A stretch of 48,789 bases of DNA, from assembly GCA_902760965.1 (NCBI GenBank), contig CACWIN010000023.1, forward strand, positions 1-48,789. The letters run 5' to 3'. The notes beneath the pieces were generated by a model that was not told the origin of the DNA, did not search any database, and saw only the letters and a list, made by a program, of their open reading frames with translations. Both the position numbers and the translations under genes were made by a program. Origin of the DNA: an uncultured Bacteroidales bacterium (GTDB lineage Bacteria > Bacteroidota > Bacteroidia > Bacteroidales > Bacteroidaceae). Shown here in pieces: positions 1,197-42,633 of this stretch. Each line of letters opens with the position of its first letter. Positions within the stretch are counted from its first letter, which is position 1.

Positions 1197-1517
1197 ATGG
1201 ATGATATTTATTTCCTGACGGACTTGGATGTAGCCAAGAGGATAGGGGCTAATCTTAAGAGCATGCGGTTAAGGCAGAACATTACTCAGAGTAATCTTGC
1301 TGAATCTGCTGGAGTGTCGCTCTCTACATTAAAAAAGATAGAAAGCGGCGACATCTGCTCTTTTGATTCTTTCTTGAGAATGTTGCGCACACTGCGTAAA
1401 CTCGATGTGCTTCAGCCGTTGGTTGATGAAGAACAACTAACACCTAATGAGTATTGGGAGTTTATAAATAACGCAAAACGGAAAATACGTAAACGCGCTG
1501 GGAGAGCCGGCAAATAA
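1197..1517 (+). CDS. hipB: HipB-like antitoxin, XRE-family helix-turn-helix regulator
   Basis: A 106-residue protein with an XRE-type helix-turn-helix at about residues 12-60 (AKRIGANLKSMRLRQNITQS, then LAESAGVSLSTLKKIESGD). The C-terminal tail is basic (NAKRKIRKRAGRAGK). It sits 14 nt upstream of a full-length hipA-like gene on the same strand, the normal antitoxin-first order. In HipBA modules HipB dimers neutralise HipA and repress the operon. The two palindromes just upstream are candidate binding sites. The name rests on domain type plus context rather than close similarity to E. coli HipB. Confidence 0.85.
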   Translation: MDDIYFLTDLDVAKRIGANLKSMRLRQNITQSNLAESAGVSLSTLKKIESGDICSFDSFLRMLRTLRKLDVLQPLVDEEQLTPNEYWEFINNAKRKIRKRAGRAGK

Positions 1518-1531
1518 AAAAACTAAAGACT

Positions 1532-2809
1532 ATGATTGATGCAGCGAGAGTAAAATTGTTTGGTATGCCTATCGGCACTTTGAGATTGGATCACCGATAT
1601 GATGTGGTCAGTTTCCAATATGACGATCAGTTTGCAAATACAGGCATTGAACCGGCCCCGCTTATGATGCCGGTAAGAAAAGGAGTTGTTTATTCTTTCG
1701 GTAATCTGGAGAGAATCACCTATCAGGGACTTCCCGGTATGATGGCCGATTCTCTACCGGATACGTACGGACGGGCATTGTTTGAAAAGTGGTTGTCTTT
1801 AAATGGCAGGACCAGCGGTAATGTTATAGAGTCTTTGTGTTATCTTGGAAACCGATGCATGGGTGCATTGGAGTTTGAACCTGCACTGCTTGATGACAGC
1901 AAATCAGATATGTCATTTGAGATAGATTCTCTTGTGGATGTTGCCAGAGAGGCGTTGGCTGAGAAAGAGAGTTTCAGCACCAATCTGAGTAATGACAGGA
2001 AATCAGCAATTGCAGAGATTCTCAGGTTGGGAACATCGGCTGGAGGTCAGAGAGCCAAAGCGGTCATTGCATACAATAAAGAGACGGGTGAGGTCAGATC
2101 CGGTCAGATTATGGCCCCAGATGGCTTTGACTATTACCTTATTAAACTTGACGGGGTATCGGCAACTGCCGGATTCAAGGAGACTGGAAATTATGGGCGT
2201 CTGGAATGTTCATTCTATAAATTGACTCAGAAGTGTGGAATAGATATGACAGAATGCTCAATTCTGGAGGAAAACGGCCGCGCTCATTTCATGACAAAAC
2301 GTTTTGACCGATTGGACGGAAATAAACTCCATATGCAGACGCTATGCGGAATTGCTCACTTTGATTACCGCATTCACAGGGCGTATTCATATGAGCAGGC
2401 ATTCGGTGTCATGAGGATGCTCAAACTCTCATATCAGGAAATGAGTCAGTTGTTCAGACGTATGGTCTTCAATGTAGTGTTCAGAAATCAGGATGACCAT
2501 ACTAAGAACATCTCCTTCCTGATGGATGACAATGGTAATTGGAGATTGTCTCCGGCATACGATATGGGTTATTCATATAATCCTGCAGGTGGCTGGACAT
2601 CAACACATCAGATGTCAATCAACAACAAATTTGATGACATAACACGTAAAGATTTGTTGGCTTGTGCATCGGCCAATGGCATCAAGGATGCATCGGAAAT
2701 AATCGATGAGGTTTGCGATGCAATATCCCTATGGCCTGATATCGCCCGTGATTGTGGAGTACCGCAGCAGATGATTGATGGTATTACACCAAACTTTGTT
2801 CATTTATAG
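1532..2809 (+). CDS. hipA: HipA-like serine/threonine kinase toxin
   Basis: A 425-residue HipA-family kinase. In E. coli, HipA phosphorylates glutamyl-tRNA synthetase and causes growth arrest and persistence. Visible motifs in order are an N-terminal HipA subdomain with GLPGMMADSLPDTYG, an ATP-loop segment GTSAGGQRAK (residues 167-176), FMTKRFDR, the catalytic loop NQDDHTKN (319-326), and the metal-binding SPAYDM with Asp344. All residues expected for an active kinase appear present, and the length is typical of a full-length HipA rather than a split HipN/HipA form. The substrate cannot be read from sequence. It is probably co-transcribed with hipB, and a strong hairpin terminator follows. 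Confidence 0.92.
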   Translation: MIDAARVKLFGMPIGTLRLDHRYDVVSFQYDDQFANTGIEPAPLMMPVRKGVVYSFGNLERITYQGLPGMMADSLPDTYGRALFEKWLSLNGRTSGNVIESLCYLGNRCMGALEFEPALLDDSKSDMSFEIDSLVDVAREALAEKESFSTNLSNDRKSAIAEILRLGTSAGGQRAKAVIAYNKETGEVRSGQIMAPDGFDYYLIKLDGVSATAGFKETGNYGRLECSFYKLTQKCGIDMTECSILEENGRAHFMTKRFDRLDGNKLHMQTLCGIAHFDYRIHRAYSYEQAFGVMRMLKLSYQEMSQLFRRMVFNVVFRNQDDHTKNISFLMDDNGNWRLSPAYDMGYSYNPAGGWTSTHQMSINNKFDDITRKDLLACASANGIKDASEIIDEVCDAISLWPDIARDCGVPQQMIDGITPNFVHL

Positions 2810-2832
2810 AAAAAGACAATCCAATTAGAGTA

Positions 2833-2865
2833 GAACGGTCCAAGATCAATGGACCGTTTTATTCT
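2833..2865 (+). terminator. Terminator after hipA
   Basis: The stem AACGGTCC (2834-2841) pairs with GGACCGTT (2851-2858) across a 9-nt loop and is followed by a T-rich run. It lies between convergent hipA and the first of the paralogous genes, so it may act in both directions. Confidence 0.75.
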
Positions 2866-2884
2866 AGTTTTACAAAACTATGAT

Positions 2885-4141
2885 TCAGTAGCCTCCATTG
2901 ATAGCAACCCCCAGATTCAGGGACCATACATCTCCAAGGTTCTTCTTGTAATTATGGTACATACCGTATACCGAGATCCTCAATCCTCTAAATGATATCC
3001 CATTGTTATCCTGATCTCTCCAGATAATCCAGTCGGTATCCAGACCAAAGAGAAACCCTTGGTTCCCGGGAAGTTTACTTTCTATATTGTTGCCGTATTT
3101 CTGTTTCTTATCTGTATATTGAGTGAGGGAACCTAATGAAGTTCCTATAACGGGTGTAAATCTGACGTATTCATTTGAAAATAGAGTATATCCTGTTTTA
3201 AACCTTATTCCGGCTTCATTGACGGTCTCACCTTTAGTCCAATCATAGTTGTAGTCATAATCATGATAGAAATCTGACTGCTTTAGTTCGCCATACCCCA
3301 ATATATATAACTCTCCTTCAAATTTGAAACCATGGTATCCCACCTCAAATCCGAATGTCATTCCGTTAGCTGGTTTCAGAAATTCTGAGCCGTTCCCTAT
3401 AATGCTGTTGTTGAGATATCCCATGTGTGCTCCCATTTCCAGTTTAGTCTTTTTGATGGGAGTATATCCGAATTCCTGCGGGGTATATTCTCTGGGATTT
3501 TCTATGAGTTCCCTTTTAATTTTGGACTCATAGTCCGATATTACCGTCGTGTCTTTACCTTGATTGCTTTCACGGTTAAATGACTGTTTTCTCTCTTCAA
3601 ATATACGTTGATAGTATTCCTTAATATCGCCTTTAGTCGTATCCTGACTGCTGTTATAGGCTCTTACGGCTTCTCTGGCCGATAACTCCGCAATGTCAAA
3701 CAGGACTTTATTGTATCTCAGATCCCAATCATCGGCCTTGGCAGGATCATAATAACTCCTGCCGGGAATCATGGATACAGTCAGATCCTTATACGAATAA
3801 TTTGTATTCCGATATTTGAACAACCCTAATTTTTCACTTTCTTGTATTTTTATCGTGCTGTTAGAACCTGTTTCATCGGCACTAACCGGAATGAAATTGT
3901 CCCATGACAGGTTTGGGGCTTCGCTCCATTCTATAATTCCTTGAAATACCAACCTATACAATGGGGAGAGGGTTATGGAGTCCGTTGTATGTAGAGGTAT
4001 TTTCATGGAGAATTGGTAGTGAGGCCATACGGAATCAATCTCTGCAAGGGTATATACCTGAACCTCCGTCTGTGAATAGGCAGTGCTGAATGTTAGCAAT
4101 AGACCTACCATTAAGGAGAATAAGAGATTTGACGTTTTCAT
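2885..4141 (-). CDS. Secreted paralog 1: degenerate peptidase-like domain plus outer-membrane-barrel-like domain
   Basis: A 418-residue protein, first of four tandem relatives. A signal peptide covers about residues 1-23 (MKTSNLLFSLMVGLLLTFST, then AYSQ). The N-terminal part has a WSEAPNLSWDNF motif (72-83) and WDLRYNKVLFDIAELSAR (139-156). This resembles the DUF922 family, in which the matching stretch is an HE..H metal site followed by FDI.EL. Here both His and the Glu are replaced, so catalysis is unlikely. The C-terminal half is a run of alternating strands (YHGFKFEGELYILGYGE through VWSLNLGVAINGGY) typical of a small outer-membrane barrel. The DUF922 link is from memory and is an inference; the biological role is unknown. 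Confidence 0.8.
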   Translation of the reverse strand: MKTSNLLFSLMVGLLLTFSTAYSQTEVQVYTLAEIDSVWPHYQFSMKIPLHTTDSITLSPLYRLVFQGIIEWSEAPNLSWDNFIPVSADETGSNSTIKIQESEKLGLFKYRNTNYSYKDLTVSMIPGRSYYDPAKADDWDLRYNKVLFDIAELSAREAVRAYNSSQDTTKGDIKEYYQRIFEERKQSFNRESNQGKDTTVISDYESKIKRELIENPREYTPQEFGYTPIKKTKLEMGAHMGYLNNSIIGNGSEFLKPANGMTFGFEVGYHGFKFEGELYILGYGELKQSDFYHDYDYNYDWTKGETVNEAGIRFKTGYTLFSNEYVRFTPVIGTSLGSLTQYTDKKQKYGNNIESKLPGNQGFLFGLDTDWIIWRDQDNNGISFRGLRISVYGMYHNYKKNLGDVWSLNLGVAINGGY

Positions 4142-4242
4142 ATATATATAGGAAACGATAGACGTATATATATCCGATATACAAATCTGTTTCAGGTTAA
4201 ATCCGAATTATTTCAAGAACAATCTCATATGCATTAAATAGG

Positions 4243-5385
4243 TCAGAACATACGCCACGGACTCATTCCTTCCGGGAATAACACATTGAAACCTAATGAA
4301 ATACTTATGTTGGCAGACCAGATAGTTTCACCTCCAATGTTTGTATATGACACATTAGGTCTTAATCTGAGATAATACTCGTATGATGGAGAACTGGCGT
4401 GCAAGTCACGGAATAGAATATAGTCTGCATTTACTCCTGCGTCCAGAGAAAAACCATTTGCTTTATTTTTGTCTTGGCCGTCATCGTTTATTTGATGTAT
4501 GGAACTTAAACCTATGCCTGCATACGGAACAATCTTAATGTATTGTCCGTGGTATGCATGGTATCCGATATTGATACCGCAATTAAGTAGTCTGGCCGTC
4601 TGATCGTTCCAATCATATCGGTTATCTTTATTAAAACAGGATTCAAAGACATTGAATGTGCCTGTTCTGGTGCAAAACTCAATATCAACTTTTCTGAATC
4701 CGAAAAGCATCCCCAGGTCTATTCCATTCACAGAATTAATTTTGCTTCTGGATCCTCCAATTGGATTCGAACTTAAATATCCCACATGTAAGCCGAATGA
4801 TGTCGGATAATCTGTTAACGGAATGGTGGGCTTGCTTGGAGGAAGCATCCGGAGTTCCCTTATAAGGTCCTGAGCAAAACGGGAGATGGCGGCAGTGTCT
4901 TCTTGATAGTTTGTTTCCAAGGCAAACTCCTTGAATCGCTGTGTTGCCTCATCCATGGCGTGCTCTATTGTATTATCCCTGAACTCACTGTCATAGTTCT
5001 TGTTATACTCCCTCTGTCTCAACCTGACATTCAGTTCGCATATGTCAAACTGGATGTTGTTTGTAATCAGATCCCATTTGCTGACTTTATCAGGGTCATA
5101 CCACGATGAAGTGGGGTTCATGTATGCCTCAAACTGGGTATACTCAAACCTGGTATTTCCGATAATTGCGGTCTTTGTTTCGGTCTCAATACCCAGTTTG
5201 ATATATGTGGGTCTCAAAGTGTCGGTCTTTATATGCAGGACCTGGAAATCATCCCATGTCACGCGTTGTTCGCTCCATTTCCTGGGGCTGATGAGTTTGG
5301 GCAGACCTGCGTATGCGTGTGTCGTAGTGAATGTAATGACAACCAAAAGCAGCAACCTTGCTATATGGGAAATGCTCGTTTTCAT
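4243..5385 (-). CDS. Secreted paralog 2: degenerate peptidase-like domain plus barrel-like domain
   Basis: A 380-residue protein with a signal peptide ending near THAYA (about residue 26). It shares the family layout: KWSEQRVTWDDF near the N-terminus, SSWYDPDKVSKWDL, then NNIQFDICELNVR in place of a metallopeptidase helix. A charged linker (EDTAAISRFAQDLIREL) leads to a C-terminal strand-rich region with DNRYDW and a terminal strand IWSANISISLGF. Like its relatives it lacks an HExxH pair. It lies 5 nt downstream of paralog 3 on the same strand, so the two are very likely co-transcribed. It is the most divergent of the four in the barrel region. Function unknown. Confidence 0.8.
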   Translation of the reverse strand: MKTSISHIARLLLLVVITFTTTHAYAGLPKLISPRKWSEQRVTWDDFQVLHIKTDTLRPTYIKLGIETETKTAIIGNTRFEYTQFEAYMNPTSSWYDPDKVSKWDLITNNIQFDICELNVRLRQREYNKNYDSEFRDNTIEHAMDEATQRFKEFALETNYQEDTAAISRFAQDLIRELRMLPPSKPTIPLTDYPTSFGLHVGYLSSNPIGGSRSKINSVNGIDLGMLFGFRKVDIEFCTRTGTFNVFESCFNKDNRYDWNDQTARLLNCGINIGYHAYHGQYIKIVPYAGIGLSSIHQINDDGQDKNKANGFSLDAGVNADYILFRDLHASSPSYEYYLRLRPNVSYTNIGGETIWSANISISLGFNVLFPEGMSPWRMF

Positions 5386-5390
5386 GATGT

Positions 5391-6560
5391 TTATTTGTGA
5401 AAATTGCTCTTAAGATTGATACCTAACACCAATGATACACCTATGTTTAGGGACCATACATCTCCAATGACATCATTCTTTTCATGTACACCATGAATCT
5501 TGAATCTCAGGATGTTTGAATTGATGGCGTCTATATGTGTCGTCCAGTCTGTTTCCAGACCGAATATCCAGCAGGGTGATGAGGTGATAGAACTGCTCTT
5601 TTTTACGTCATCCTCATCTTTCCAGTCTTGTGAATAATAAGAAGAACTTATTCCGATGACGGGATGAACGGTTATGTAATTATTGGAGTAGAGCGCGTAT
5701 CCTATCGTCAAGAAAGGATTTATCTTCATCGTTTTCCTTTTTTCCACCCAGTCATAATCCTGCTTTATATCATGGTACAGCCCTGATTTGAGTGTCCGAC
5801 TCCATAGAAAACCGACACCTGCGTCTATTTTGAAATTCCGGTAACTCCAACCTAATCCAATTGAGAGACCGTTGAACGGTTCAAAAATATCGGCTCCGGT
5901 CCCTATTATCCTGTCGTTGTTGTAACCTATGAAAGTGGTAAGGTCGCTGCGGTCGCAACGATAAGATGAAAGGTCCGGGAATGATTCCTGGCGCTGATTC
6001 CTGGCAAGTTCTTTTTCAACCTCTTTCTCATAAGCCGTGATCACTGTCGTATCCTTACCATATTCACTCTCAAGTTCAAAGGCATTGATCCTTGCATCTA
6101 AAAGCTCCTGGAAAGGACCTTCATCCTCTTTTCCTCCAAGTTGAGGGTGCCCTAATACCTCTCTTGCTGACAACTCTGCAATATCAAACAACAAATTATA
6201 GTATCTGAGTTCCCAGGCTGTCGCGAATTCAGGGTCGTAGAAGCTCTTATTTGGATTGACGGCTACTTGATATTCATACCAATAATAATATGAGTTCCTG
6301 ATCTTCTGGTCATGGTATTCCGGACACAGATATATTGAAATGTTGCTACTTGTCTTGCCTTCCAGCCCGTGTTGAGGTGTGAAATCATCCCATGTCAGAT
6401 CCTTGGATTCATTCCACATTACTAAGGGCCTTTGAGATACAAGTTTATATGATGATAAATTCGTCTTGGAGCTTTCATCGGAAGTATTCTGGCAGAATGC
6501 GGAATTTGTAAATAGAAAGAGCCCAGACGCCACTAGAGATAGGAGAGAACCGGTTTTCAT
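5391..6560 (-). CDS. Secreted paralog 3: degenerate peptidase-like domain plus barrel-like domain
   Basis: A 389-residue protein. I chose the ATG at 6560 because it starts a clear signal peptide (MKTGSLLSLVASGLFLFTNS), although the frame stays open upstream to 6728. Family motifs are MWNESKDLTWDDF, KSFYDPEFATAWELRY, NLLFDIAELSAREV (no metal-binding His/Glu), GKDTTVITAYEKEVEKELAR, and a strand-rich C-terminus with KQDYDWVEKR and DVWSLNIGVSLVLG. It heads a probable three-gene transcript (paralogs 3, 2, 1). A minus-strand -7 box lies at 6587-6594. Closest to paralog 1 by motif wording. Function unknown. Confidence 0.8.
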   Translation of the reverse strand: MKTGSLLSLVASGLFLFTNSAFCQNTSDESSKTNLSSYKLVSQRPLVMWNESKDLTWDDFTPQHGLEGKTSSNISIYLCPEYHDQKIRNSYYYWYEYQVAVNPNKSFYDPEFATAWELRYYNLLFDIAELSAREVLGHPQLGGKEDEGPFQELLDARINAFELESEYGKDTTVITAYEKEVEKELARNQRQESFPDLSSYRCDRSDLTTFIGYNNDRIIGTGADIFEPFNGLSIGLGWSYRNFKIDAGVGFLWSRTLKSGLYHDIKQDYDWVEKRKTMKINPFLTIGYALYSNNYITVHPVIGISSSYYSQDWKDEDDVKKSSSITSSPCWIFGLETDWTTHIDAINSNILRFKIHGVHEKNDVIGDVWSLNIGVSLVLGINLKSNFHK

Positions 6561-6586
6561 TATTAGGGTTAGTTCAATTATTTGCA

Positions 6587-6594
6587 CAAACTTA
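6587..6594 (-). promoter_or_regulatory. -7 box for paralog 3
   Basis: Read on the minus strand this is TAAGTTTG, a match to TAnnTTTG, 27 nt upstream of the paralog 3 ATG. I see no good -33 box at the normal distance. Confidence 0.5.
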
Positions 6595-6603
6595 CGCAAA
6601 ACA

Positions 6604-6635
6604 ATTGAATTAGTCTTTTGTTTTTTATATGTTTG
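6604..6635 (+). promoter_or_regulatory. Rightward promoter pointing into the inverted-repeat-bounded segment
   Basis: ATTG (6604-6607), a 20-nt spacer and TATGTTTG (6628-6635) form a good Bacteroidota promoter on the plus strand. It points away from paralog 3 and into the left 45-bp repeat, and no plus-strand gene follows it in the present orientation. If the segment 6706-8039 were flipped, this promoter would face the start of paralog 4. Confidence 0.5.
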
Positions 6636-6660
6636 TAGAAAAGTAGTATTATTAACCTTA

Positions 6661-6705
6661 AGCATCCGCAGGCCTACTTTGAAGTCCACAAGGAGAACTA
6701 CTGAT
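6661..6705 (+). pseudogene. Duplicated 3' end of the rubrerythrin gene (left inverted repeat)
   Basis: These 45 nt match the last codons and TGA stop of the rubrerythrin gene with one mismatch (44/45), but lie on the opposite strand. The intact copy is 8040-8084 on the minus strand. The encoded tail is [13 protein letters not shown] then stop in both. Nothing else of rubrerythrin is present here. The pair forms an inverted repeat around paralog 4 and one REPIN. Confidence 0.9.
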
Positions 6706-6718
6706 CCTAAGCGAGCTG

Positions 6719-6816
6719 AGGGGCACAAAGGGGACGGTTCTTTTTGTGCCCCTCTCTACAACACCTCCTAGGGCAATAATTAGGGGCACAAAAAGAACCG
6801 TCCCCTTTGTGCCCCT
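6719..6816 (-). repeat. REPIN A (98-bp palindromic element)
   Basis: Two 35-nt arms in inverted orientation (6719-6753 and 6782-6816) flank a 28-nt centre with CTAG. Each arm is itself a hairpin: stem AGGGGCACAAA / TTTGTGCCCCT around a 13-nt loop beginning GGGGACGGTTC. CTAC at 6756-6759 (GTAG on the minus strand) lies 2 nt from the left arm. It sits just 3' of paralog 4. Confidence 0.93.
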
Positions 6817-6835
6817 GTGCGCCCGGATAATCACG

Positions 6836-8023
6836 TCAGAAAATAATGATAGGTATATAATAAAAGCCCGTGTTATAGGTCTTGCAATCAAAATGAAATG
6901 CCACACCAAAATTGATAGACCAAATGTTTTTTCTAGCGCCGCTATAACGATCCAAAGCACCATACAGTCTGAATCTCAGACTAGTGTTAAGTACTTCATC
7001 CGGACGAATTGTTCGCTTAAACATCCAGTCTGCATTAATGCCGGCCTGAAGAGCTATACCATCAATGTTGCTTAAATAATATGTGTCTTTTTTGGAGTTG
7101 AGGGAGTTAGTCTTTTGCCTATGGCTAGAGTAACCTACGCCAGCATAAGGAATAAATCTGAAATACTGATTGGTATTTAAGGTATGACCAACATTCACAT
7201 AGAAACGCATAATATCGGTATGCTTTCCAAGCTCCCAGTCGTAATTGTATTTGGAATCCCAATAGTATTTATCGACTTTCAAATTGGTAAACTGCATAGA
7301 AAAACCAAAATCAAAATACCAGTTATTCCGACCAAAAAAGTCAAAACCGACACTCATGCCATCGGACGGTTTTAGATTGTCCGAAGCCTCTCCCATAAAC
7401 ATTCCCCGGTCGTATGAGACATAAAAGCCAAACGTATCGTCAACGTGTTCGGCCATGCTCAAATCCGGTTCTTTCCTGGGGTTTCTGTCAAGTTCTCCAG
7501 TGATTGATTCCTCATATTTCCTGACAACCAATGAATCTCTGCCCCCGTCACTTTCTTTTATGAATTGATCAACCTGAGTCTTAGCTTTTTCCTCGTATTT
7601 TTCCTTTATCTTTTGGAAATTCTGGGTAGTTTCACCTAAGCTCAAGTTCTGGATATATCGGGAGTGCAGTTCCATAATATCAAAAACAACCTGATCCGCT
7701 CTAAGGTTCCACTCCGTTGCCTTTTGGGGATCGTACCACGTTTTATCCTTATTAAGGTAACAATCAAACGAATAGTATACAAACTTGTAGTTGCCAATCT
7801 TGTTTTTCCGGGTTGTAGATTTGTATATAAAATCAGTTATGGAACTATAGTTTGCTCTTTCACCAAACTCAGCAACCTGATAATCAGCCCAAGTTAGAGG
7901 TCCAGTAATCCAGGATTTAAGGTTGCTATCCCTATTTTTGCCCGATAAAGATAGATTACCTACAACTAAAAATGACAGGTATAATACAAAGAATATCCTA
8001 CGTATGTCAGTTTTAGAATTCAT
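6836..8023 (-). CDS. Secreted paralog 4: degenerate peptidase-like domain plus barrel-like domain
   Basis: A 395-residue protein with an N-terminal hydrophobic signal (IFFVLYLSFLVVGNLSLSG). Family motifs are WITGPLTWADY, KTWYDPQKATEWNLRAD, QVVFDIMELHSRY (metal ligands absent), GRDSLVVRKYEESITGEL, and the strand-rich region with KYNYDWELG and IWSINFGVAFHFD. It starts only 17 nt after the rubrerythrin stop codon on the same strand, so it may now be transcribed from the rubrerythrin promoter. The whole gene lies inside the 45-bp inverted repeat (6661-6705 / 8040-8084). Function unknown. Confidence 0.8.
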   Translation of the reverse strand: MNSKTDIRRIFFVLYLSFLVVGNLSLSGKNRDSNLKSWITGPLTWADYQVAEFGERANYSSITDFIYKSTTRKNKIGNYKFVYYSFDCYLNKDKTWYDPQKATEWNLRADQVVFDIMELHSRYIQNLSLGETTQNFQKIKEKYEEKAKTQVDQFIKESDGGRDSLVVRKYEESITGELDRNPRKEPDLSMAEHVDDTFGFYVSYDRGMFMGEASDNLKPSDGMSVGFDFFGRNNWYFDFGFSMQFTNLKVDKYYWDSKYNYDWELGKHTDIMRFYVNVGHTLNTNQYFRFIPYAGVGYSSHRQKTNSLNSKKDTYYLSNIDGIALQAGINADWMFKRTIRPDEVLNTSLRFRLYGALDRYSGARKNIWSINFGVAFHFDCKTYNTGFYYIPIIIF

Positions 8024-8040
8024 TCGCGTTCTATAATTTA

Positions 8041-8580
8041 TCAGTAGTTTTCCTTGTGGACTTCAAAGTAGGCCTGCGGATGCTGGCAGACGGGGCATAT
8101 CTGCGGAGCCTTGGTGCCCACTACTATGTGACCGCAGTTACGGCATTCCCAAACCTTTACTTCCGATTTCTCAAATACCTTTGCGGTCTCAACGTTCTTG
8201 AGCAGGGCGCGGTAACGCTCCTCGTGAGTCTTCTCAATGGCGGCAACCATGCGGAAACGTGCAGCCAGAACTGGGAATCCTTCCTGCTCGGCAGTCTTGG
8301 CAAAGCCCTCGTACATATCGGTCCACTCATAGTTCTCACCATCGGCGGCAGCACCAAGATTCTGAGCGGTATCGCCTATGCCCTCCAGCTCCTTGAACCA
8401 AAGTTTGGCGTGCTCCTTTTCATTGTTTGCTGTCTCCTCAAATATTGCAGCTATCTGCTCAAAACCCTCTTTCTTGGCTTTTGATGCAAAATAGGTGTAC
8501 TTGTTACGTGCCATTGACTCTCCGGCAAATGCTGCCTCCAGATTCTTCTCGGTCTGGGTTCCTGCGTACTTGTTACTCAT
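8041..8580 (-). CDS. rbr: Rubrerythrin
   Basis: A 179-residue non-haem di-iron peroxidase that reduces hydrogen peroxide in anaerobes. The start at 8580 gives the normal N-terminus ([18 protein letters not shown]); an upstream in-frame extension to 8643 is not family-like. The ferritin-like four-helix part carries the iron ligands in [23 protein letters not shown] and [12 protein letters not shown]. The C-terminal rubredoxin-like domain has the pairs CRNCGH and CPVCQHP that bind one iron. A -7 box lies upstream, and the 3' end is duplicated in inverted orientation at 6661-6705. Confidence 0.96.
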
Positions 8581-8618
8581 AATCGTATTGTTTATAAGGT
8601 TAATAATTCTCTTCCCGA

Positions 8619-8626
8619 CAAATATA
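8619..8626 (-). promoter_or_regulatory. -7 box for rubrerythrin
   Basis: On the minus strand this reads TATATTTG, a full match to TAnnTTTG, 38 nt upstream of the rubrerythrin ATG. No clear -33 box is seen. Confidence 0.55.
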
Positions 8627-8654
8627 CTAAAAAAGTAGTGCAATAGGAGCGCTC

Positions 8655-8752
8655 AGGGGCACAAAGGGGACGGTTCTTTTTGTGCCCCTCTCTACAATAC
8701 CTTCTAGCGCCATAAATAGGGGCACAAAAAGAACCGTCCCCTTTGTGCCCCT
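8655..8752 (-). repeat. REPIN B (98-bp palindromic element)
   Basis: The arms 8655-8689 and 8718-8752 are identical to those of the other complete copies. The 28-nt centre has CTAG. CTAC at 8692-8695 is GTAG on the minus strand, 2 nt from the left arm. Extra partial repeats of the arm end (TTGTGCCCCT) continue to the apbE stop codon at 8762-8764, and the TAG stop merges with the repeat sequence. Confidence 0.93.
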
Positions 8753-8761
8753 GTTGTGCCC

Positions 8762-9742
8762 CTATTGTGCGATGATTGTGCCGTCGGGGGATTGGTAAAT
8801 GAAGTAGGCGCGGATTTCGGGATGGCGGGCCAGGAGGGCCTGGGCACTGTCAAGCCCCATTACCATCATTGAGGTGGCCAGGGCGTCGGCGGTAGCGCAG
8901 TCCGATGCAAACACCGTGGCGGACAGCAGGCTGTGGCTCACAGGCGTGCAGGTGTGCGGGTCAATGGTGTGGGCATATTTGCGCCCATCCTTCACGTAAA
9001 AATTGCGGTAGTTGCCCGATGTGGCCATTGCAATGTCTGTAACCGGAATTACAGTCTGCAGCTCATTGTTTACGGAGAGTGAGTCATCAACCGGTTTGCT
9101 GATGCCTATATTCCAGAGCTTACCTTTAGGATTCTGGCCGCTCACCACAATTTCGCCGCCAACCTCGACCATAAAGTCACAGATTCCCTTGGAGCGCAAC
9201 ATGTCCGCAACCATATCGGTCCCGAATCCCTTGGCAATGGCGCTGCAGTCCAGCATTATACGCGGATCGTCCTTGGTTATCAGGCCGTCATGCTCATGAA
9301 TCTTCCAGTATCCCGTAATCTCCAACAGGCTGTCAATGGTGCTCTGACTTATATTCTCGGAATGCTTGAAACCGAACCCCCATGCGTTCACTGCGGGAGC
9401 CACGGTTATATCAAAAGCGCCATTGGTCATACGTGAAATCTCCATTGCGCGGCGAAAAACCTTTAGGAACATGGTATCGGTCACCTGAATGCTCTCCGAA
9501 CTGTTCACGGCCGATATGGTTGACTCCGGATTGAACATGGAAAGAGCGCTGTCAACCAGAGCCAGAGTGTAATCAATATCAGGCTGCAGGTCAGCGTTGT
9601 ATAGATATGTAATGTTGTAGCGTGTACCAAATACCAGTCCCTGGGCGGTGCGGTATTCCGGCTTGCCCTGTTTGCTTTCGGACAGGATGATGACTGTTCC
9701 TATGGCAAGGAAAGCCAAAAACAAATAGTGCCACTTTTTCAT
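8762..9742 (-). CDS. apbE: FAD:protein FMN transferase, ApbE family
   Basis: ApbE enzymes attach FMN covalently to a Thr or Ser of membrane redox proteins such as Nqr and Rnf subunits. The protein has an N-terminal membrane segment (KKWHYLFLAFLAIGTVIIL) and the family blocks in order: FGTRYNITY, VEVGGEIVVSG, ATSGNYRNF, YAHTIDPHTCTPV and the metal/FAD region DCATADALATSMMVMG. I place the start at 9742, one nucleotide after the mntP stop; an upstream ATG at 9763, overlapping mntP, would add seven residues. It is last in a tight operon with DUF4199, a glycosyltransferase and mntP. Its TAG stop joins a repeat related to REPIN B. Confidence 0.92.
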   Translation of the reverse strand: MKKWHYLFLAFLAIGTVIILSESKQGKPEYRTAQGLVFGTRYNITYLYNADLQPDIDYTLALVDSALSMFNPESTISAVNSSESIQVTDTMFLKVFRRAMEISRMTNGAFDITVAPAVNAWGFGFKHSENISQSTIDSLLEITGYWKIHEHDGLITKDDPRIMLDCSAIAKGFGTDMVADMLRSKGICDFMVEVGGEIVVSGQNPKGKLWNIGISKPVDDSLSVNNELQTVIPVTDIAMATSGNYRNFYVKDGRKYAHTIDPHTCTPVSHSLLSATVFASDCATADALATSMMVMGLDSAQALLARHPEIRAYFIYQSPDGTIIAQ

Positions 9743-9743
9743 A

Positions 9744-10316
9744 TCACGCTGTGAGATGTTCAATCAGAATCTTTATGCCTATGCCAATCAGTATTATACC
9801 GCCAATAATCTCCACCGGAAAGTTTATGCGCTTGCCTGCGTATGCGCCAATCACGAATCCAGCCACAGAGAACAGGAACGAGCCGATGGCAATGATGGTT
9901 ACCGGCAGCAGTATGCTTGCAAAAGTGTTGTAACCCGAGCATCCGAATGACAATCCAACGGCCAGAGCGTCAATGCTGGTGGCAATAGCCATTGTTATAG
10001 TGGTTGAGAACTTTGAAGGATCAAAAGATTTTTCCTCCTCATCACTCTTTAGTCCGCTCAGAATCATCCTGCCTCCAAGGAATGCCAACAACCCGAAAGC
10101 AATCCAGTGATCCCAACGTTCCAGCGCATTGCTGAAAGAGCTTATGCCTAACCAGCCAATCATGGGCATAAGGCCCTGGAACAGTCCGAACATAAAGGCT
10201 GTAACAAGCATGGTGCGCATAACAAGCCTGCGTTGGATGAGTCCGCTGGTAATGGACACCGTAAAGCAGTCCATTGCAAGCGCCACGGACAGGAGTATAA
10301 GATCAAGAACAGTCAT
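9744..10316 (-). CDS. mntP: Manganese efflux pump MntP
   Basis: A 190-residue inner-membrane protein with six predicted membrane segments, the usual size for MntP (formerly DUF204/YebN), which exports Mn2+. Both conserved acidic helices are visible: SVALAMDCFTVSI near the N-terminus and IATSIDALAVGLSFG in the middle, each with the Asp needed for transport in the family. It is 3 nt after the glycosyltransferase stop and 1 nt before apbE. No yybP-ykoY riboswitch can fit, because there is no leader between it and the preceding gene. Confidence 0.93.
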   Translation of the reverse strand: MTVLDLILLSVALAMDCFTVSITSGLIQRRLVMRTMLVTAFMFGLFQGLMPMIGWLGISSFSNALERWDHWIAFGLLAFLGGRMILSGLKSDEEEKSFDPSKFSTTITMAIATSIDALAVGLSFGCSGYNTFASILLPVTIIAIGSFLFSVAGFVIGAYAGKRINFPVEIIGGIILIGIGIKILIEHLTA

Positions 10317-10319
10317 GGA

Positions 10320-11276
10320 TTACTTAATCTCTTTTTCAATCTTGTAGTCGTTGCGGTTCTGGGAACTGCGGCTCACCAGTTCGGCCAGGAATCCAACCAG
10401 GAACATGAGCGTACCCATTATCATACCGGTCAATGCAATGTAAAAATAGGGGTTGTCAGTAATCAGGTTGCCATGAATGCCATGAGCCAGGCAGACCAGT
10501 TTGTTTATGCCGATTATAATAATGGCAATAAAGCAGATTACAAACATAACCGAGCCCCAAAGACCAAAAAAGTGCATGGGCTGCTTGCCAAAGCGGTTCA
10601 GGAACCAGAGTGACATAAGGTCCAGATAGCCGTTTACAAAACGGTCCAGGCCAAATTTGGTGGTGCCGTACTTGCGTGCCTGATGATGAACCACCTTCTC
10701 GCCAATCTTGCCGAATCCGGCGTTCTTGGCCAGAAAGGGAATGTAACGGTGCATCTCGCCGTAAACCTCTATGTTCTTTACAACCTCACGGCGATATGCC
10801 TTAAGGCCGCAGTTCATGTCGTGCAGCTTAAGACCTGTAACCTTGCGTGCGGTCCAGTTGTATATCTTTGATGGGATATTCTTGCTAAGAGTACCGTCAT
10901 AGCGTTTCTTTTTCCAGCCCGATACCAGGTCAAATCCGTCCTCGCGGATCATGCGAACCATCTCAGGCACCTCCTCGGGGCTGTCCTGAAGGTCGGCATC
11001 CATGGTCACCACAATATCGCCCTGGGCCATATCGAAACCGCAGAACAGGGCAGGGGATTTGCCGTAATTGCGGCGGAACTTTATGCCCTTTACTATGTCG
11101 GGGTTATCGGCCTTAAGCCCTTCAATTATCTTCCAGGAGTCATCGGTGCTGCCGTCATCAACAAATATAACCTCGTAGCTGAATTTGTTCTGTGACATTA
11201 CACGGTCTATCCATGCAAAGAGTTCCGGAATGGACTCTGCCTCATTCAAGAGCGGTACAATAATTGAAATATCCAT
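10320..11276 (-). CDS. Family 2 glycosyltransferase with two C-terminal membrane segments (DPM1/GtrB-like)
   Basis: A 318-residue membrane glycosyltransferase that probably moves a sugar onto undecaprenyl or another polyprenyl phosphate. The GT-A fold is clear: IIVPLLNEAESIP at the start, VIFVDDGSTDDSW, GKSPALFCGFDMAQGD, the DXD-like MDADLQDSPEEV, and HDMNCGLKAYRREV. Two hydrophobic helices follow (SVMFVICFIAIIIIGINKLV and FYIALTGMIMGTLMFLVGFL), the usual topology of the GtrB/ArnC group. The sugar donor cannot be told. It begins 2 nt after the DUF4199 stop, so it is cotranscribed with it. Confidence 0.88.
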   Translation of the reverse strand: MDISIIVPLLNEAESIPELFAWIDRVMSQNKFSYEVIFVDDGSTDDSWKIIEGLKADNPDIVKGIKFRRNYGKSPALFCGFDMAQGDIVVTMDADLQDSPEEVPEMVRMIREDGFDLVSGWKKKRYDGTLSKNIPSKIYNWTARKVTGLKLHDMNCGLKAYRREVVKNIEVYGEMHRYIPFLAKNAGFGKIGEKVVHHQARKYGTTKFGLDRFVNGYLDLMSLWFLNRFGKQPMHFFGLWGSVMFVICFIAIIIIGINKLVCLAHGIHGNLITDNPYFYIALTGMIMGTLMFLVGFLAELVSRSSQNRNDYKIEKEIK

Positions 11277-30904: not shown

Positions 30905-32137
30905 ATGACAGATAATATGGATTTGATTAAAAGATTTTTGAGTTATACCGCTGTCGATACGCAGTCCGATGAAAACTCCCAGACCGTCCCCAGCACCTCT
31001 AAACAGTTGAATCTGGCACGCCAGCTTAAGGCTGAGCTGGAGAGCATGGGGCTAGAAGAGGTTTATATGGATGATATGGGATACGTCTATGCATCGCTTC
31101 CCGCCAACACAGACAAGAAGATTCCTACCATAGGTTTTATTTCACACATGGACACCAGTCCCTCCATGAGCGGCAAGGATGTAAAACCGCGCATTGTTGA
31201 GAAATATGACGGTGGGGACATTGTGCTCAACAAAGAGCAGAACATTGTTTTGTCGCCAAGCCTTTTCCCCGAACTGCTTGCACACAAGGGCGAGGACCTG
31301 ATTGTGACCGATGGCACCACGCTTCTTGGGGCCGATGACAAAGCAGGTATTGCCGAGATAATCACTGCCATAGAGTATCTGCAGCAGCATCCTGAGATAA
31401 AGCACGGCAAGGTGCGTGTGGGCTTTAATCCCGATGAAGAGATTGGCATGGGTGCCGCTCATTTTGACGTGGAGCGTTTTGGCTGCGAGTATGGCTATAC
31501 CGTCGATGGCGGTGAGGTAGGAGAGATGGAGTATGAGAACTTCAATGCCGCCAAGGCCGTGTTCAGGATTCAGGGTCTTGAGGTACATCCGGGCTATGCA
31601 AAGGGCAAGATGGTCAATGCATCACTGCTGGCATCGGAACTTATTCAAATGTTTCCTGCCGATGAGACTCCTGGTACTACCCAGGGGTATGAGGGCTTTT
31701 ATCATATAGTTGGACTGTCCGGTGAGGTTGACCATGCATCGGTCACATTTATCATACGTGACCATGACCGCGCCAAATTTGAGGCCCGTAAGGAGTTTGC
31801 CCGGAGTGTGGCTGCAAAGATGAATGCCAAATACGGCCAGGGAACCGTTGTGGCCGAGGTCAGTGACCAGTACTACAATATGAAGGAGCAGATTGACAAG
31901 GTTCCGCACGTGATTGATATAGCCTGTGAGGCAATGAAAATGGCTGGCGTCACTCCTGTCAAGGTACCAATCCGTGGCGGCACGGACGGTGCCCAACTCT
32001 CATTCAAGGGTCTGCCTTGTCCCAACCTGTTTGCCGGTGGCATGAACTTTCACGGGCGCTACGAGTGGGTTCCCATTCAGAGCATGGAAAAAGCAATGAT
32101 GACGATTGTTCACATCATCGGGTTGGTTGCCCGATAG
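30905..32137 (+). CDS. pepT: Peptidase T (tripeptidase)
   Basis: A cytosolic zinc aminotripeptidase of the M20 family, about 410 residues as in other bacteria. The metal-binding blocks are in order: [14 protein letters not shown] (His, with the adjacent Asp), [11 protein letters not shown] (bridging Asp), [10 protein letters not shown] (general base and ligand Glu), [12 protein letters not shown] and [13 protein letters not shown] near the C-terminus. The family normally starts at MDxxxRFL, which points to the ATG at 30917; the upstream in-frame ATG at 30905 would add four residues. The gene ends two nucleotides before the stop of the convergent hslR-like gene. Confidence 0.96.
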
Positions 32138-32139
32138 AG

Positions 32140-32553
32140 TCACTCGTCAAAATCAAATTCTTCGTCAGGGAGTTCAAAGGGAGCGTCGGACAGGAAGTCC
32201 TCCATGTCGCGGCGGTCCTTTTTTGTTGGGCGGCCCAGGCCGGCGGCGCGCTTTACGAATCCGCCAATGCGGTTCATTTCAAGTATTTCATACTGCTCCT
32301 TGGGGGTGATGTTCTCCATCATCTCAGGGACCAGTTTGGCTCCAACGCGGTTCTCAATGGCCTGAAGCACTTTGAAGCTATAGGTTACGGGGGCTTTGCG
32401 GACCGATACGGTATCGCCCTCCTTTACGGTCTTGGAGGGCTTGCACTGTACGCCGTTTATCTGGATGCGGCCCTTCTTGCAGGCATCGGCAGCAATGGTG
32501 CGTGTCTTAAAGATACGCACTGACCACAACCACTTGTCAATCCGAGCTTCCAT
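32140..32553 (-). CDS. S4-domain RNA-binding protein, Hsp15/HslR-like
   Basis: A 137-residue protein with an S4 RNA-binding domain at the N-terminus (RIDKWLWSVRIFKTRTIAAD, then GRIQINGVQCKPSKTVKEGD). E. coli Hsp15 binds 50S subunits carrying stalled nascent chains. The C-terminal tail is very acidic (PDEEFDFDE). The start at 32553 gives MEARIDKWLW, the normal family start; the reading frame upstream only translates a heptanucleotide array. It lies 44 nt downstream of pth on the same strand. Confidence 0.86.
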   Translation of the reverse strand: MEARIDKWLWSVRIFKTRTIAADACKKGRIQINGVQCKPSKTVKEGDTVSVRKAPVTYSFKVLQAIENRVGAKLVPEMMENITPKEQYEILEMNRIGGFVKRAAGLGRPTKKDRRDMEDFLSDAPFELPDEEFDFDE

Positions 32554-38001: not shown

Positions 38002-38055
38002 GTGAGTTCCGCGAAATTGAGCCCCATATAAAATAATATTTTATATGCGGTTTTT

Positions 38056-38087
38056 CTTGGTGGTTACGTTAAATTGTTTTAACTTTG
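38056..38087 (+). promoter_or_regulatory. Promoter of the DUF4954 gene
   Basis: CTTG (38056-38059), a 20-nt spacer and a perfect -7 box TAACTTTG (38080-38087), 31 nt before the ATG at 38119. Confidence 0.65.
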
Positions 38088-38118
38088 CGGGCGCAACTCC
38101 TATTCAAGGACAATAATT

Positions 38119-40326
38119 ATGGAAAAAGTAACAGTGCTTTCAGCGGATCAGCTTTTCAACAGCTTTCTTGATCCAAAGTATATTCCCGCAGGTCAAAACA
38201 AGTATTATCTCCGCAATACGCAGGTAACCGCTCCCAAAGGCGGCTGGCGTCATCTTACAAGTTTTGAGATAGAGACCCTTGTCAAGAATGACAATACCGC
38301 CATGAGCTGGGATAACATCATGGTGACCGATGAGTTTGACCCGTTAATGATAAAGAACAACAAGTTCTACGGCTTTGTCCGCATCGGACGAGTATCATCA
38401 AACGGACTCCAGTATCATGATTTAAGGCTCCCGTGCGGTATAACCAACAGTTCAATACATTCCTGCGATATAGGCGACGACTGCGCCATCCACAACGTGC
38501 ACTATCTGTCACATTATATTATAGGTGACCGATGCATGCTGTTCAATATCCAGGAAATGTCATGCACGGACCACGCCAAGTTCGGCAACGGCATAGTAAA
38601 GGACGGCGAGGACGAGGACGTTCGCGTCTGGCTGGAGCTCATGAACGAGACCGGCTGCCGCAAGGTGCTTCCGTTTGAAGGCATGATTGCGGCCGATGCA
38701 TACCTGTGGGCCAAGTTCATCGATGACAAGCGTCTTCAGGACAGGCTTAAGGATATTACGCAGAACACTTTTGACAGCCGCCGCGGTTTTTACGGAACCA
38801 TAGGATACGGCAACGTAATAAAGAACTGCTGGATAATCAAGGACGTAAAGATTGGCAACTGCTGCTACATTAAGGGTGCAAGCAAGCTTAAGAACCTGAC
38901 TATCAATTCATCAGAAAAGGATTCAACCCAGATAGGCGAGAACGTGGTTCTGGTAAACGGTATAATTGGATACGGTTGCCGCCTGTTCTACTCCGTAATT
39001 GCAGTCCGCTTTGTGCTGGGCAGCCACTCCAACCTTAAATACGGTGCACGCCTCATGAACTCATTTATGGGCGACAACTCCACAATATCGTGCTGTGAGG
39101 TGCTTCACAACCTTATTTTCCCGGCTCACGAGCAGCATCACAACAACTCGTTCCTTATTGCCAGCGTGGTCAAGGGGCAGTCAAACCTGGCCGCCGGCGC
39201 AACCATCGGCTCCAACCACAATTCACGTACAAATGACAACGAGATTGAGGCAGGACGCGGATTCTGGCCCGGTCTTTGCGTTAGCGTAAAGCATTCCTGC
39301 AAGTTTGCCAGTTTCACTATGCTGGCCAAGGGCGCTTATCCGGCCGAGATGATCAACCCGTTCCCGTTTGCGCTTATCAGCAATGATGAGATGCATGGTG
39401 AACTGCACGTTATGCCTGCATTCTCATGGAGGTACAATATGTTCGCTATGGCACGTAACAACTGGAAATTCGCAAACCGCGATACCCGTGTGTTCAAGGT
39501 CCAGAACATTGAATTTGATGCATATGCCCCGGATTCAATGGAAGAGGCCATCGAGGCCCGCAAGCTGTTGGATAAGTGGACCGCAAAGGCATGGCTCCTC
39601 AAGGAGGGCAAGAGCCTTGACGGTATGACCGATGAAAAACTCCTGGAAATGGGCCGAAACCTTCTTAACGGCGATCCTGCCAAGGTCAAGGGCCTTGAGG
39701 TTCTGGGCGAGAATATGGAAAAATCAAAACGTAAGGTCGTAATTATCCATCCTTACGAGGCATATCATGCTTATGGCGAAATGCTCATTTACTATGCAGT
39801 AAGGAACATCGTTTCGTATCTGGAGGATAATGAGGACGTCAAGTTCCAGGATATCAGCAAGATGTTTGACGGTGACCGCGCCCGCGTATGGTTCAATCTG
39901 GGCGGTCAGCTTATGTCAATGGAGGATGTTGACCAGTTGCGTTCCGATATCAAGGACGGTACGCTCAACTCATGGAAAGAGATCCATCACCGTTACACCG
40001 AAATCTGGAAAAAGTATCCTGTTGACAAACTGCGTCACGCCTACATGTCACTTAAGCATGTATTTGGCGTAGACACCTTTACGGCCGATGATTGGAACAA
40101 TATCCTTAACAAGGGCATCGATATTCAGAACTATATATTCAATCAGGTTTACGAAACCCGCAAAAAGGATTACGAGAACAAGTTCCGCAGGGCTACATTC
40201 CTGAGTGAGGACGAGATGCTTGCTGCATGGGGCAAGCTGGACGAGAACAGCTTTATCCTTCAGCAGCGCAAGGAACTCAAGGAGTTTACCGAGCGGGTTC
40301 AGAATATTAAGAAGAGACTGATCTGA
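38119..40326 (+). CDS. DUF4954 family protein with left-handed beta-helix (hexapeptide-repeat) domain
   Basis: A 735-residue protein. Residues about 90-400 are a series of hexapeptide-like turns (for example ITNSSIHSCDIGDDCAIHNV, CWIIKDVKIGNCCYIKGASK and NVVLVNGIIGYGCRLFYSVI) forming a left-handed beta-helix like that of sugar nucleotidyl- and acyltransferases. The C-terminal third is helical and charged. This layout matches DUF4954, known in Bacteroidota and spirochaetes. The enzymatic role is unproven; the next gene encodes a sugar-phosphate SIS protein, which hints at sugar-nucleotide chemistry. It has its own promoter and is followed by a long hairpin. Confidence 0.85.
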   Translation: MEKVTVLSADQLFNSFLDPKYIPAGQNKYYLRNTQVTAPKGGWRHLTSFEIETLVKNDNTAMSWDNIMVTDEFDPLMIKNNKFYGFVRIGRVSSNGLQYHDLRLPCGITNSSIHSCDIGDDCAIHNVHYLSHYIIGDRCMLFNIQEMSCTDHAKFGNGIVKDGEDEDVRVWLELMNETGCRKVLPFEGMIAADAYLWAKFIDDKRLQDRLKDITQNTFDSRRGFYGTIGYGNVIKNCWIIKDVKIGNCCYIKGASKLKNLTINSSEKDSTQIGENVVLVNGIIGYGCRLFYSVIAVRFVLGSHSNLKYGARLMNSFMGDNSTISCCEVLHNLIFPAHEQHHNNSFLIASVVKGQSNLAAGATIGSNHNSRTNDNEIEAGRGFWPGLCVSVKHSCKFASFTMLAKGAYPAEMINPFPFALISNDEMHGELHVMPAFSWRYNMFAMARNNWKFANRDTRVFKVQNIEFDAYAPDSMEEAIEARKLLDKWTAKAWLLKEGKSLDGMTDEKLLEMGRNLLNGDPAKVKGLEVLGENMEKSKRKVVIIHPYEAYHAYGEMLIYYAVRNIVSYLEDNEDVKFQDISKMFDGDRARVWFNLGGQLMSMEDVDQLRSDIKDGTLNSWKEIHHRYTEIWKKYPVDKLRHAYMSLKHVFGVDTFTADDWNNILNKGIDIQNYIFNQVYETRKKDYENKFRRATFLSEDEMLAAWGKLDENSFILQQRKELKEFTERVQNIKKRLI

Positions 40327-40337
40327 TAACATTGGCC

Positions 40338-40421
40338 TTGGCGTTGGCTTTGGCTCTTTTGCTGAGTCTCGTGCCAACGTTATCTGCCGGATGGTAGCAA
40401 AAGCCAAAGCCAACGCCAAAG
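40338..40421. repeat. Long hairpin built from 6-mer repeats after the DUF4954 gene
   Basis: A left arm of TTGGCG/TTGGCT-type units (40338-40363) is nearly the reverse complement of 40396-40421, with a 2-nt bulge, giving a stem of about 24-26 bp. No T-run follows on the plus strand. It could limit read-through into the SIS gene. Confidence 0.8.
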
Positions 40422-40458
40422 TATTATAACCAATAATAAACCACTTAAATACAAGAAT

Positions 40459-41475
40459 ATGAATCTTAAAGAGAACAAGTACTCCCAGTACGCACTTGTA
40501 CAGGAGATGATGGACACTGTCGAGACAGTCAAGAAATTCAATCCCGATTGCACAAAGGAGATTGCAGCTCAGGTTAAGAAAGCCGGCAAGGCTTATTTTA
40601 CCGGCGAGGGCTCAAGCCGTATCTTCCCCGCCAAGAACACTCTGCGCAAGACCAAGCGTTGGGGCATCGACCTTAATGCCCAGACCGATGGCTCATGGCA
40701 GTCACGTGAGTATGACCTGAGCAAGTTTGCCGTATTCTTGGCATCCAACTCCGGCCGTACCAAGGAGGTTACTCTTCTGGCCAAGAAACTCATGGAGGAG
40801 GGCAATCCTCTCCGTTTCGGACTTACAGCTAACGAAGGCACCATCCTTTCTACTTTCTGCGCAAACACTCATGTGCTCAATTGCGGTTGGGAGCAGGCTG
40901 TTGCCGCTACCAAGAGCGTAGTTGAGCAGGCTCTTTACTATGAGTCAGTTCTTTGGAATATGTCTGGCAAGGATGTTAAGGCCGGTCTGGCTGCACTTCC
41001 CGCTCAGATTGAGCAGGCCCTTACACTTCAGGTTCCCGCCGAGATTGTAGAGTGGGTCAAGAAGGCCGAGACAATCTACTTTGCAGGTTACAACGATGGC
41101 GTTGCCGAGGAGCTTACCCTTAAGACCAACGAGATTACCCGCCGTAAGTCCGATTTCCTGGAGGGCACATACGCTCTGCACGGAATTGAGGAGGTAATGA
41201 AGGAGGGCGACATCATCTTCTGGGTTGATCCTATTGCCGATGAGTACCAGAAGATTCAGGACTGCCTTATCAAGGGTGCCGGCGTTAAGGTCGTTGCAAT
41301 TGCTGACCACGACACTCCGTTCCCGACCATCAAGACTCCAGCTGCAGGTGACTTTAACCCGTACGTATATCTGTGCGCCGGTTGGAACGTTCTTGTTGAG
41401 ATCGGTATCGCTACCGGTATGGATCTGGATCATCCAAACCGTGCCCGCAAGGTTGGTAACGAAATTCAACTGTGA
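40459..41475 (+). CDS. SIS-domain sugar-phosphate isomerase-like protein
   Basis: A 338-residue protein with two SIS domains like the isomerase half of GlmS. The first has YFTGEGSSRIFPAKN and the Ser-rich phosphate loop SNSGRTKEV; the second has YFAGYNDGVAEELTLKTNE and the GlmS-like FLEGTYALHGIEEVM. Relatives act as sugar isomerases or deaminases on aminosugar phosphates. There is no glutaminase domain, so it would not use glutamine. The substrate is unknown. It is followed by a strong terminator. Confidence 0.87.
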   Translation: MNLKENKYSQYALVQEMMDTVETVKKFNPDCTKEIAAQVKKAGKAYFTGEGSSRIFPAKNTLRKTKRWGIDLNAQTDGSWQSREYDLSKFAVFLASNSGRTKEVTLLAKKLMEEGNPLRFGLTANEGTILSTFCANTHVLNCGWEQAVAATKSVVEQALYYESVLWNMSGKDVKAGLAALPAQIEQALTLQVPAEIVEWVKKAETIYFAGYNDGVAEELTLKTNEITRRKSDFLEGTYALHGIEEVMKEGDIIFWVDPIADEYQKIQDCLIKGAGVKVVAIADHDTPFPTIKTPAAGDFNPYVYLCAGWNVLVEIGIATGMDLDHPNRARKVGNEIQL

Positions 41476-41506
41476 TATAATATTTAATGCTTTTGATTCA
41501 TTCGGG

Positions 41507-41540
41507 AAGGTCGGCTTGTGTTAGCCGGCCTTTCTTTTTT
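41507..41540 (+). terminator. Terminator after the SIS gene
   Basis: GGTCGGCT (41509-41516) pairs with AGCCGGCC (41523-41530), with one G-T pair, followed by a T-rich tail. REPIN D repeats begin immediately after it. Confidence 0.9.
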
Positions 41541-41550
41541 AGGGGCACAA

Positions 41551-41648
41551 AGGGGCACAAAGGGGACGGTTCTTTTTGTGCCCCTAAATATGCCTCTAGG
41601 AGGTGTTGTAGCGAGGGGCACAAAAAGAACCGTCCCCTTTGTGCCCCT
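41551..41648 (+). repeat. REPIN D (98-bp palindromic element, left flank of the RAYT gene)
   Basis: Arms 41551-41585 and 41614-41648 with a 28-nt centre holding CTAG. GTAG at 41608-41611 is 2 nt from the right arm. One extra 10-mer (AGGGGCACAA) precedes it. It ends 54 nt upstream of the transposase ATG. Confidence 0.95.
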
Positions 41649-41702
41649 TTGTTCGATTTAATTTTGTAACTTGCGAGTCTAATCCAAAAAACTAAAAAAT
41701 CT

Positions 41703-42494: not shown

Positions 42495-42505
42495 TGGCAC
42501 AAATG

Positions 42506-42603
42506 AGGGGCACAAAGGGGACGGTTCTTTTTGTGCCCCTAAATATGCCTCTAGGAGGTATTGTAGCGAGGGGCACAAAAAGAACCGTCCCCTTTGTGCC
42601 CCT
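42506..42603 (+). repeat. REPIN E (98-bp palindromic element, right flank of the RAYT gene)
   Basis: Arms 42506-42540 and 42569-42603 around a 28-nt centre differing from that of REPIN D by a single base. GTAG at 42563-42566 is 2 nt from the right arm. It lies between the RAYT stop and the pgeF promoter. Confidence 0.95.
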
Positions 42604-42629: not shown

Positions 42630-42633
42630 CGGT

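Follow-up and report, generated by a model that had tools for sequence, protein, structure and literature searches.

In enterobacteria there are duplications and inversions bounded by REP/BIME sequences, in which genes lying between dispersed palindromic repeats are rearranged by ectopic recombination. REPIN/RAYT systems are usually accounted for by the element's own transposition and persistence. In invertons, flanking repeats of 10–40 nt are bound by an invertase and the intervening segment is flipped reversibly (available text of PMC11892184).

The locus described here lies in the window, that is, the whole 48,789-nt stretch of DNA that was analysed, which belongs to an uncultured Bacteroidales bacterium known from a fragmented assembly (93 contigs, 81% complete). 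A sequence-only reading had described an inverted repeat of 45 bp, made from the 3′ end of the rubrerythrin gene (rbr) and enclosing a gene termed paralog 4, as a possible invertible switch or an inversion scar. The locus has the flanking inverted repeats of an inverton (44/45 over 45 nt). Comparison with relatives, referred to below by genome number (G008 and so on), points to a different origin: very probably, a second copy of rbr, with paralog 4 behind it, came to lie inverted between REPINs, and the original rbr was deleted to a relic.

The inverted repeat and its surroundings

The inverted repeat was recovered by repeat search and by direct comparison of its arms, which are 98% complementary (44 of 45 positions) and lie 1334 nt apart. 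The sole mismatch, at arm position 35 and near the end of rbr, is synonymous: the left arm reads GAG and the gene GAA, and each codon specifies Glu. The enclosure of paralog 4 and one REPIN by the arms, and the distance of 17 nt from the rbr stop codon to the start of paralog 4, were likewise confirmed. The features of the locus are listed below.

6614–6660 (+), relic promoter and 5′ leader from the original rbr; 47/47 to G008, with TATGTTTG at 6628–6635
6661–6705 (+), left arm of the inverted repeat, made of the last 44 nt of the original rbr including the stop codon (6661–6704) and one further base
6706–6718 (+), downstream flank of the original rbr, leading into a REPIN; resembles TTCCGAGCGAGC found 3′ of rbr in G019 and G021
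6719–6818, left REPIN: two opposed REP arms with a 28-nt loop
6782–6822 (+), REPIN arm, left member of a 41-nt inverted repeat (40/41) around paralog 4, rbr and the rbr promoter
6836–8023 (−), paralog 4, a predicted outer-membrane barrel, 17 nt behind rbr
8040–8084 (−), right arm of the 45-nt repeat, the 3′ end of the present rbr (repeat search)
8041–8580 (−), present rbr (Pfam Rubrerythrin, 1.1e-26, and RUBY_RBDX)
8581–8653 (−), promoter region of the present rbr, of G021 type, adjoining a REPIN as in G021
8649–8689 (−), REPIN arm that pairs with 6782–6822 to form the 41-nt inverted repeat (40/41)
8654–8753, right REPIN, a direct copy of the left (92%)
8754–9763 (−), ApbE-side flank, common to G019 and G021, and ApbE gene (Pfam ApbE, 2e-82); orientation reference
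41703–42494 (+), RAYT-like Y1 transposase gene (PF01797, 2.2e-10, over the cut-off)

Chance is not a sensible explanation for a repeat of this length, as a rough estimate puts the expectation in 48.8 kb at the order of 1e-16. All 12 candidate copies of the 45-mer in the genome were scored and only these two places carry it. A second rbr end was seen in none of the 21 genomes, out of 36 others of the genus, that matched the query 6600–6720, the remaining 15 giving no match.

Relic of an older rubrerythrin gene

The query 6600–6720 was searched against 37 genomes of the genus, and its matches split exactly at 6660/6661. On the left, 6614–6660 is identical to G008:C8:176300–176346, a match that ends 14 nt before the start of the G008 rbr. 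The right part of the query finds its counterpart in G019 and G021, where it covers the 3′ end of rbr and the flank behind it (56 nt, 95%); the left arm has the letters of the rbr 3′ ends of these two genomes, and together with the flank and REP arm the agreement is 94.6% over 93 nt. One weak match on contig C2 of G021 (query 23–65, 79%, E 5e-4) spans the junction and looks like chance. The promoter side and the tail of rbr are therefore fused, and both match intact orthologues in order and orientation. On these matches, 6614–6718 is a fossil of the original rbr which has kept the ancestral orientation. About 510 bp are missing from it, comprising 14 nt of leader (by the length in G008) and 496 nt of coding sequence from the 540-nt gene. 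When the G008 leader and the present rbr are set against the junction its two sides have one base in common, an overlap as in ordinary illegitimate deletion.

A promoter at 6604–6635 pointing into the segment had also been proposed. The element itself is present, with TATGTTTG on the plus strand at 6628–6635, and fits the Bacteroidota −7 element; a TAnnTTTG-like element is retained by the relic promoter and the present rbr promoter alike. Its identity is another matter, since the relic matches both the G008 rbr promoter and an rbr tail, and the promoter is therefore the old one of rbr, belonging to a gene that is dead.

An inverted rbr–paralog 4 block

Gene orientation was taken from maps of the relatives, counting only loci with both rbr and ApbE, or both rbr and Mfd. 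rbr is convergent with ApbE in all 18 relatives that have both on one stretch, and lies on the Mfd strand in all 14 that have both. The rbr of the window is on the ApbE strand and departs from both rules. The interval 6872–8634, which holds paralog 4, rbr and the rbr promoter, aligns as a single inverted piece to the rbr–paralog 4 block of G008, and rbr and paralog 4 therefore turned together or arrived together. The inverted unit is bounded by the REPINs and so takes in both rbr and paralog 4. What flanks the right REPIN, the rbr promoter on one side and the ApbE end on the other, adjoins two different REP elements in G021, as would be expected from an exchange between REPINs; the rbr of G021 is also REP-flanked on both sides. 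On this comparison the locus reads as a rearrangement scar, and no sign of an on/off switch was found. The scar or duplication that had been offered as the plain alternative thus holds in spirit, the left arm being the remnant of an older rbr and the neighbouring rbr being the inverted one.

A simple inversion of a single copy was also considered and was rejected, as it would not leave an rbr promoter fused to an rbr tail.

In the rbr–ApbE interval of G021 (L069) and G019 (L071), an insert of ∼0.3 kb interrupts the loop of the orthologous REPIN; its ends are complementary, as seen by eye, and it is apparently another small mobile element.

REPINs and a RAYT-like gene

The REPIN element, or one arm of it, occurs at at least 42 places in the genome, 40 of the 97 candidates having been scored. 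The RAYT-like gene sits between two REPINs of the same kind (41543–41648 and 42506–42614) and accounts for one of the three Y1_Tnp matches that the genome yielded. Opposed REP pairs in many copies and a REP-flanked RAYT gene, two features of a REPIN/RAYT system, were accordingly found. Inspection by eye placed a GTAG just outside one hairpin in four of the five REPINs of the window (6719–6818, 8654–8753, 41543–41648 and 42506–42614), the exception without such a GTAG being 47826–47932. GTAG-tagged REPs have been reported from Proteobacteria, Cyanobacteria, Chloroflexi and PVC, and Bacteroidetes are not named in the available text of PMC3733652.

Other inversions and their association with REPs

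The whole window was mapped on four relatives with a near-complete region, and 36.7–48.6 kb of it on ten. Blocks in the opposite orientation were found at ∼41.5–44.2 kb (G005, G009 and G021), 44296–47875 (G005), 38025–43317 (G008) and 30912–32127 (G005 and G009). Within the window, six of the seven narrow breakpoints hold a REP, whereas REPs occur in only 7 of 25 intergenic gaps (hypergeometric P 2.6e-4), and 4/5 breakpoints hold one after removal of the rbr pair (P 2.7e-3); both the breakpoints and the gene gaps were chosen by hand, and broad intervals, e.g. Mfd to rbr, 12–31 kb, 43317–44329 and 41499–42634, are omitted from the comparison. At the exceptional breakpoint, 32118–32144, REP cores are adjacent in G008 and G009 and absent in G000 and G005.

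The block at 42.6–44.2 kb is inverted in G009 without a detectable core motif at the breakpoints, and genomes devoid of core motifs there include some with either orientation, so the REPs may have come later or been lost. Likewise, no core motif was present in G008 for its inversion of 38025–43317, nor in G000 or G005 for the inversion of 30912–32127.

To gauge generality, another four stretches from the same genome (L231–L234) were compared with four relatives. No REPIN-bounded inversion was found in three of these four REP-bearing stretches on other contigs: L231 is colinear except for one piece distant from its REPs, of ∼240 bp against G008 and ∼140 bp against G009, and L233 and L234 have no within-contig inversion relative to the four genomes. 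L232 has one G008 inversion, with a REP at one end only.

In L232 (G000:C13:1–20000) the blocks 3372–7217 and 7308–11272 are swapped in order, on the same strand, relative to G005, G008 and G021. REP cores lie at or near the ends of the swapped blocks, the second of which carries another Y1_Tnp gene.

The tests are few, and the association of REPINs with inversions in the window is correlational and only suggestive. REPIN-mediated inversion is the favoured mechanism for the rbr cassette; as a general process it is only a lead.

Paralog 4 and its relatives

Searches of Pfam and NCBIfam gave no family over the cut-off for paralog 4. Its AlphaFold model is mediocre (mean pLDDT 68.2, pTM 0.49, with the four window paralogs as the only input), and in the PDB it comes closest to small outer-membrane barrels, at low TM-scores; on this model the C-terminal part is predicted, with low-to-medium confidence, to be an outer-membrane barrel. 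Relatives of paralog 4 were absent from plasmid collections, phage collections and viral contigs, and hence no mobile-element carrier was found for it.

The gap between rbr and paralog 4 in G008 has a strong hairpin followed by a T-run (−17.4 kcal/mol, z −4.3). The 17-nt gap of the window has no predicted structure and no foldable terminator, which makes read-through from rbr, an oxidative-stress gene, plausible, and paralog 4 may be co-transcribed with it.

Paralogs beside rbr (2885–8023 in the window; L069–L087) point away from rbr in all 11 relatives that carry them. Their number ranges from 0 to 5 per genome, while the rbr DNA is 87–94% identical to that of the window. Both flanks of rbr look like a hotspot of gene gain. 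The N-terminal halves of paralogs 1–4 (2885–8023, −) have the motifs W..LTW.DF and FDI.EL..R in common, and presumably recall a DUF922-like protease fold that is without its histidines and is joined to an outer-membrane barrel; this resemblance gave no match in Pfam.

A mosaic region and a proposed history

The surviving rbr is nearest to that of G021 (94.3%), slightly ahead of G017 (93.5%). Mfd, ApbE, MntP and g10320 are 71–86% identical to G021 and G017 and 79–85% to G008, and identities to G008 reach 97.6% for g1197 with HipA and 98.4% for P1. On these values the region is a mosaic. The surviving rbr has a promoter of the G021 kind, with a REPIN directly upstream, and the relic has one of the G008 kind. 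A mosaic region with promoters of two kinds makes it very likely that two copies of rbr were once present together.

At 1197–4141, HipA, its small partner and P1 are near-identical to G008, unlike Mfd, ApbE, MntP and g10320. This HipA toxin–antitoxin-like module and surface-protein paralog were probably transferred recently.

The following history would account for the locus. In the ancestor rbr would have lain on the Mfd strand, convergent with ApbE and divergent from paralog 3, with a REPIN and then ApbE behind it. A second copy of rbr, preceded by a REPIN and promoter of G021 type and trailed by paralog 4, would have settled between two REPINs at this spot, where it is now inverted; the likely route is recombination between near-palindromic REPINs, each of which has ∼40-nt homologous arms in both orientations. 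The original rbr, by then redundant, would have lost ∼510 bp, the deletion running from 14 nt upstream of the start codon to a point 44 nt short of the gene's end, with only the promoter and tail left behind. The 45-bp inverted repeat is, with a high degree of probability, a by-product of these events and not a site of recombination.

Several points stand against this history. No genome was seen with a two-rbr intermediate, nor with the uninverted state together with the relic; no relative found for paralog 4 exceeds 52% identity; the link to REPs is correlational; and, as the region is a mosaic, import could have delivered the cassette already inverted. An import in one step, in which homologous recombination brought in a fragment with the inverted rbr–paralog 4 and trimmed the resident rbr simultaneously, is a variant of the same explanation. 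It is consistent with the strong mosaicism around the locus and with a present rbr promoter that is G021-like beside a relic promoter that is G008-like, but a donor with such an arrangement was absent from the mapped relatives and we regard this route as rather unlikely.

The sequence-only reading had raised the possibility of flipping at the 45-bp repeats, whereby a programmed switch would bring paralog 4 under the promoter at 6604–6635. A long, near-perfect inverted repeat around a single gene, an rbr that would stay intact after the flip, and a TAnnTTTG-like element in both promoters agree with such a switch. Against it, the promoter and left arm together constitute the relic of an rbr deletion, and the flipped state, with paralog 4 convergent with rbr, occurs in no mapped relative; on these grounds the switch was not borne out, and flipping by the 45-mer was rejected. 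Moreover, a second rbr end is absent from G006, G008 and G012, in which rbr is immediately followed by a gene resembling paralog 4. The assembly has a single full-identity match to paralog 4 and thus no contig in a second orientation, and a Pfam scan of 17 window proteins revealed no dedicated recombinase. A programmed switch at this repeat is thus extremely improbable. If anything flips, the REPIN arms are better placed than the 45-mer, as a flip would restore the ancestral order. Reversible turning of the whole rbr–paralog 4 cassette by way of the arms 6782–6822 and 8649–8689, which are inverted and 40/41 identical, is compatible with the relic; it would return rbr to its ancestral orientation with both REPINs intact, and other REPIN-bounded blocks of the window do vary in orientation between species. 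All of that evidence is, however, between species, and REPIN-bearing stretches on other contigs are colinear across their REPINs; such flipping is unlikely. An error of joining at the REPINs during assembly is suggested by the fragmented assembly with at least 42 element places, and by the 99% identity of the left REPIN over 99 nt to a REPIN on contig C26. However, the 6660/6661 junction lies outside any repeat, the outer flank on each side agrees with the neighbour expected there, and the loops of the two REPINs differ, leaving only the ∼41-nt arms to be confused, which makes an artefact very unlikely. The duplicate inverted between REPINs, with deletion of the original rbr, is preferred to each of these.

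Comparison with known systems

What appeared to be a phase-variation switch becomes a rearrangement scar, and any long inverted repeat whose end coincides with a stop codon calls for comparison with relatives before the name inverton is applied. As in invertons of gut Bacteroidota, inverted repeats surround a segment beside likely surface-protein genes. The locus differs from them in that one arm derives from a gene relic, only a single orientation is known and the proteins scanned include no partner invertase.

REPINs coincide with several inversion breakpoints of the window, and if this is general they would have a role in the evolution of gene order. Any two REPINs form inverted repeats because each is near-palindromic. 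Tentatively, the REPIN/RAYT elements of the genus might be dispersed inversion sites that repeatedly turn gene-sized cassettes, with RAYT possibly nicking the hairpins, and thereby reshuffle orientation and transcriptional coupling between species. The cassettes would be rbr with a surface-protein paralog, a RAYT/laccase/aquaporin block and a Tex/RecA block. The word ‘inversion’ is absent from the available text of PMC3116915 and PMC8049555 (REPIN) and of PMC3733652 (REP family), and REPIN-bounded inversions are not described in the available text of these three or of PMC11892184, PMC3390384 and PMC3045373. A literature search, with most subscription journals outside its reach, found no description of REPIN-mediated inversion.

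The elements of this genome agree with the REPIN/RAYT system in having opposed REP arms around a short loop and in numbering tens of copies, and the genome also carries Y1 transposase genes, one of which is REPIN-flanked. The elements depart from the usual account of that system in that here they bound an inverted gene segment. Compared with the REP/BIME rearrangements of enterobacteria, those seen here belong to another phylum and involve short, gene-sized blocks (∼2–5 kb).
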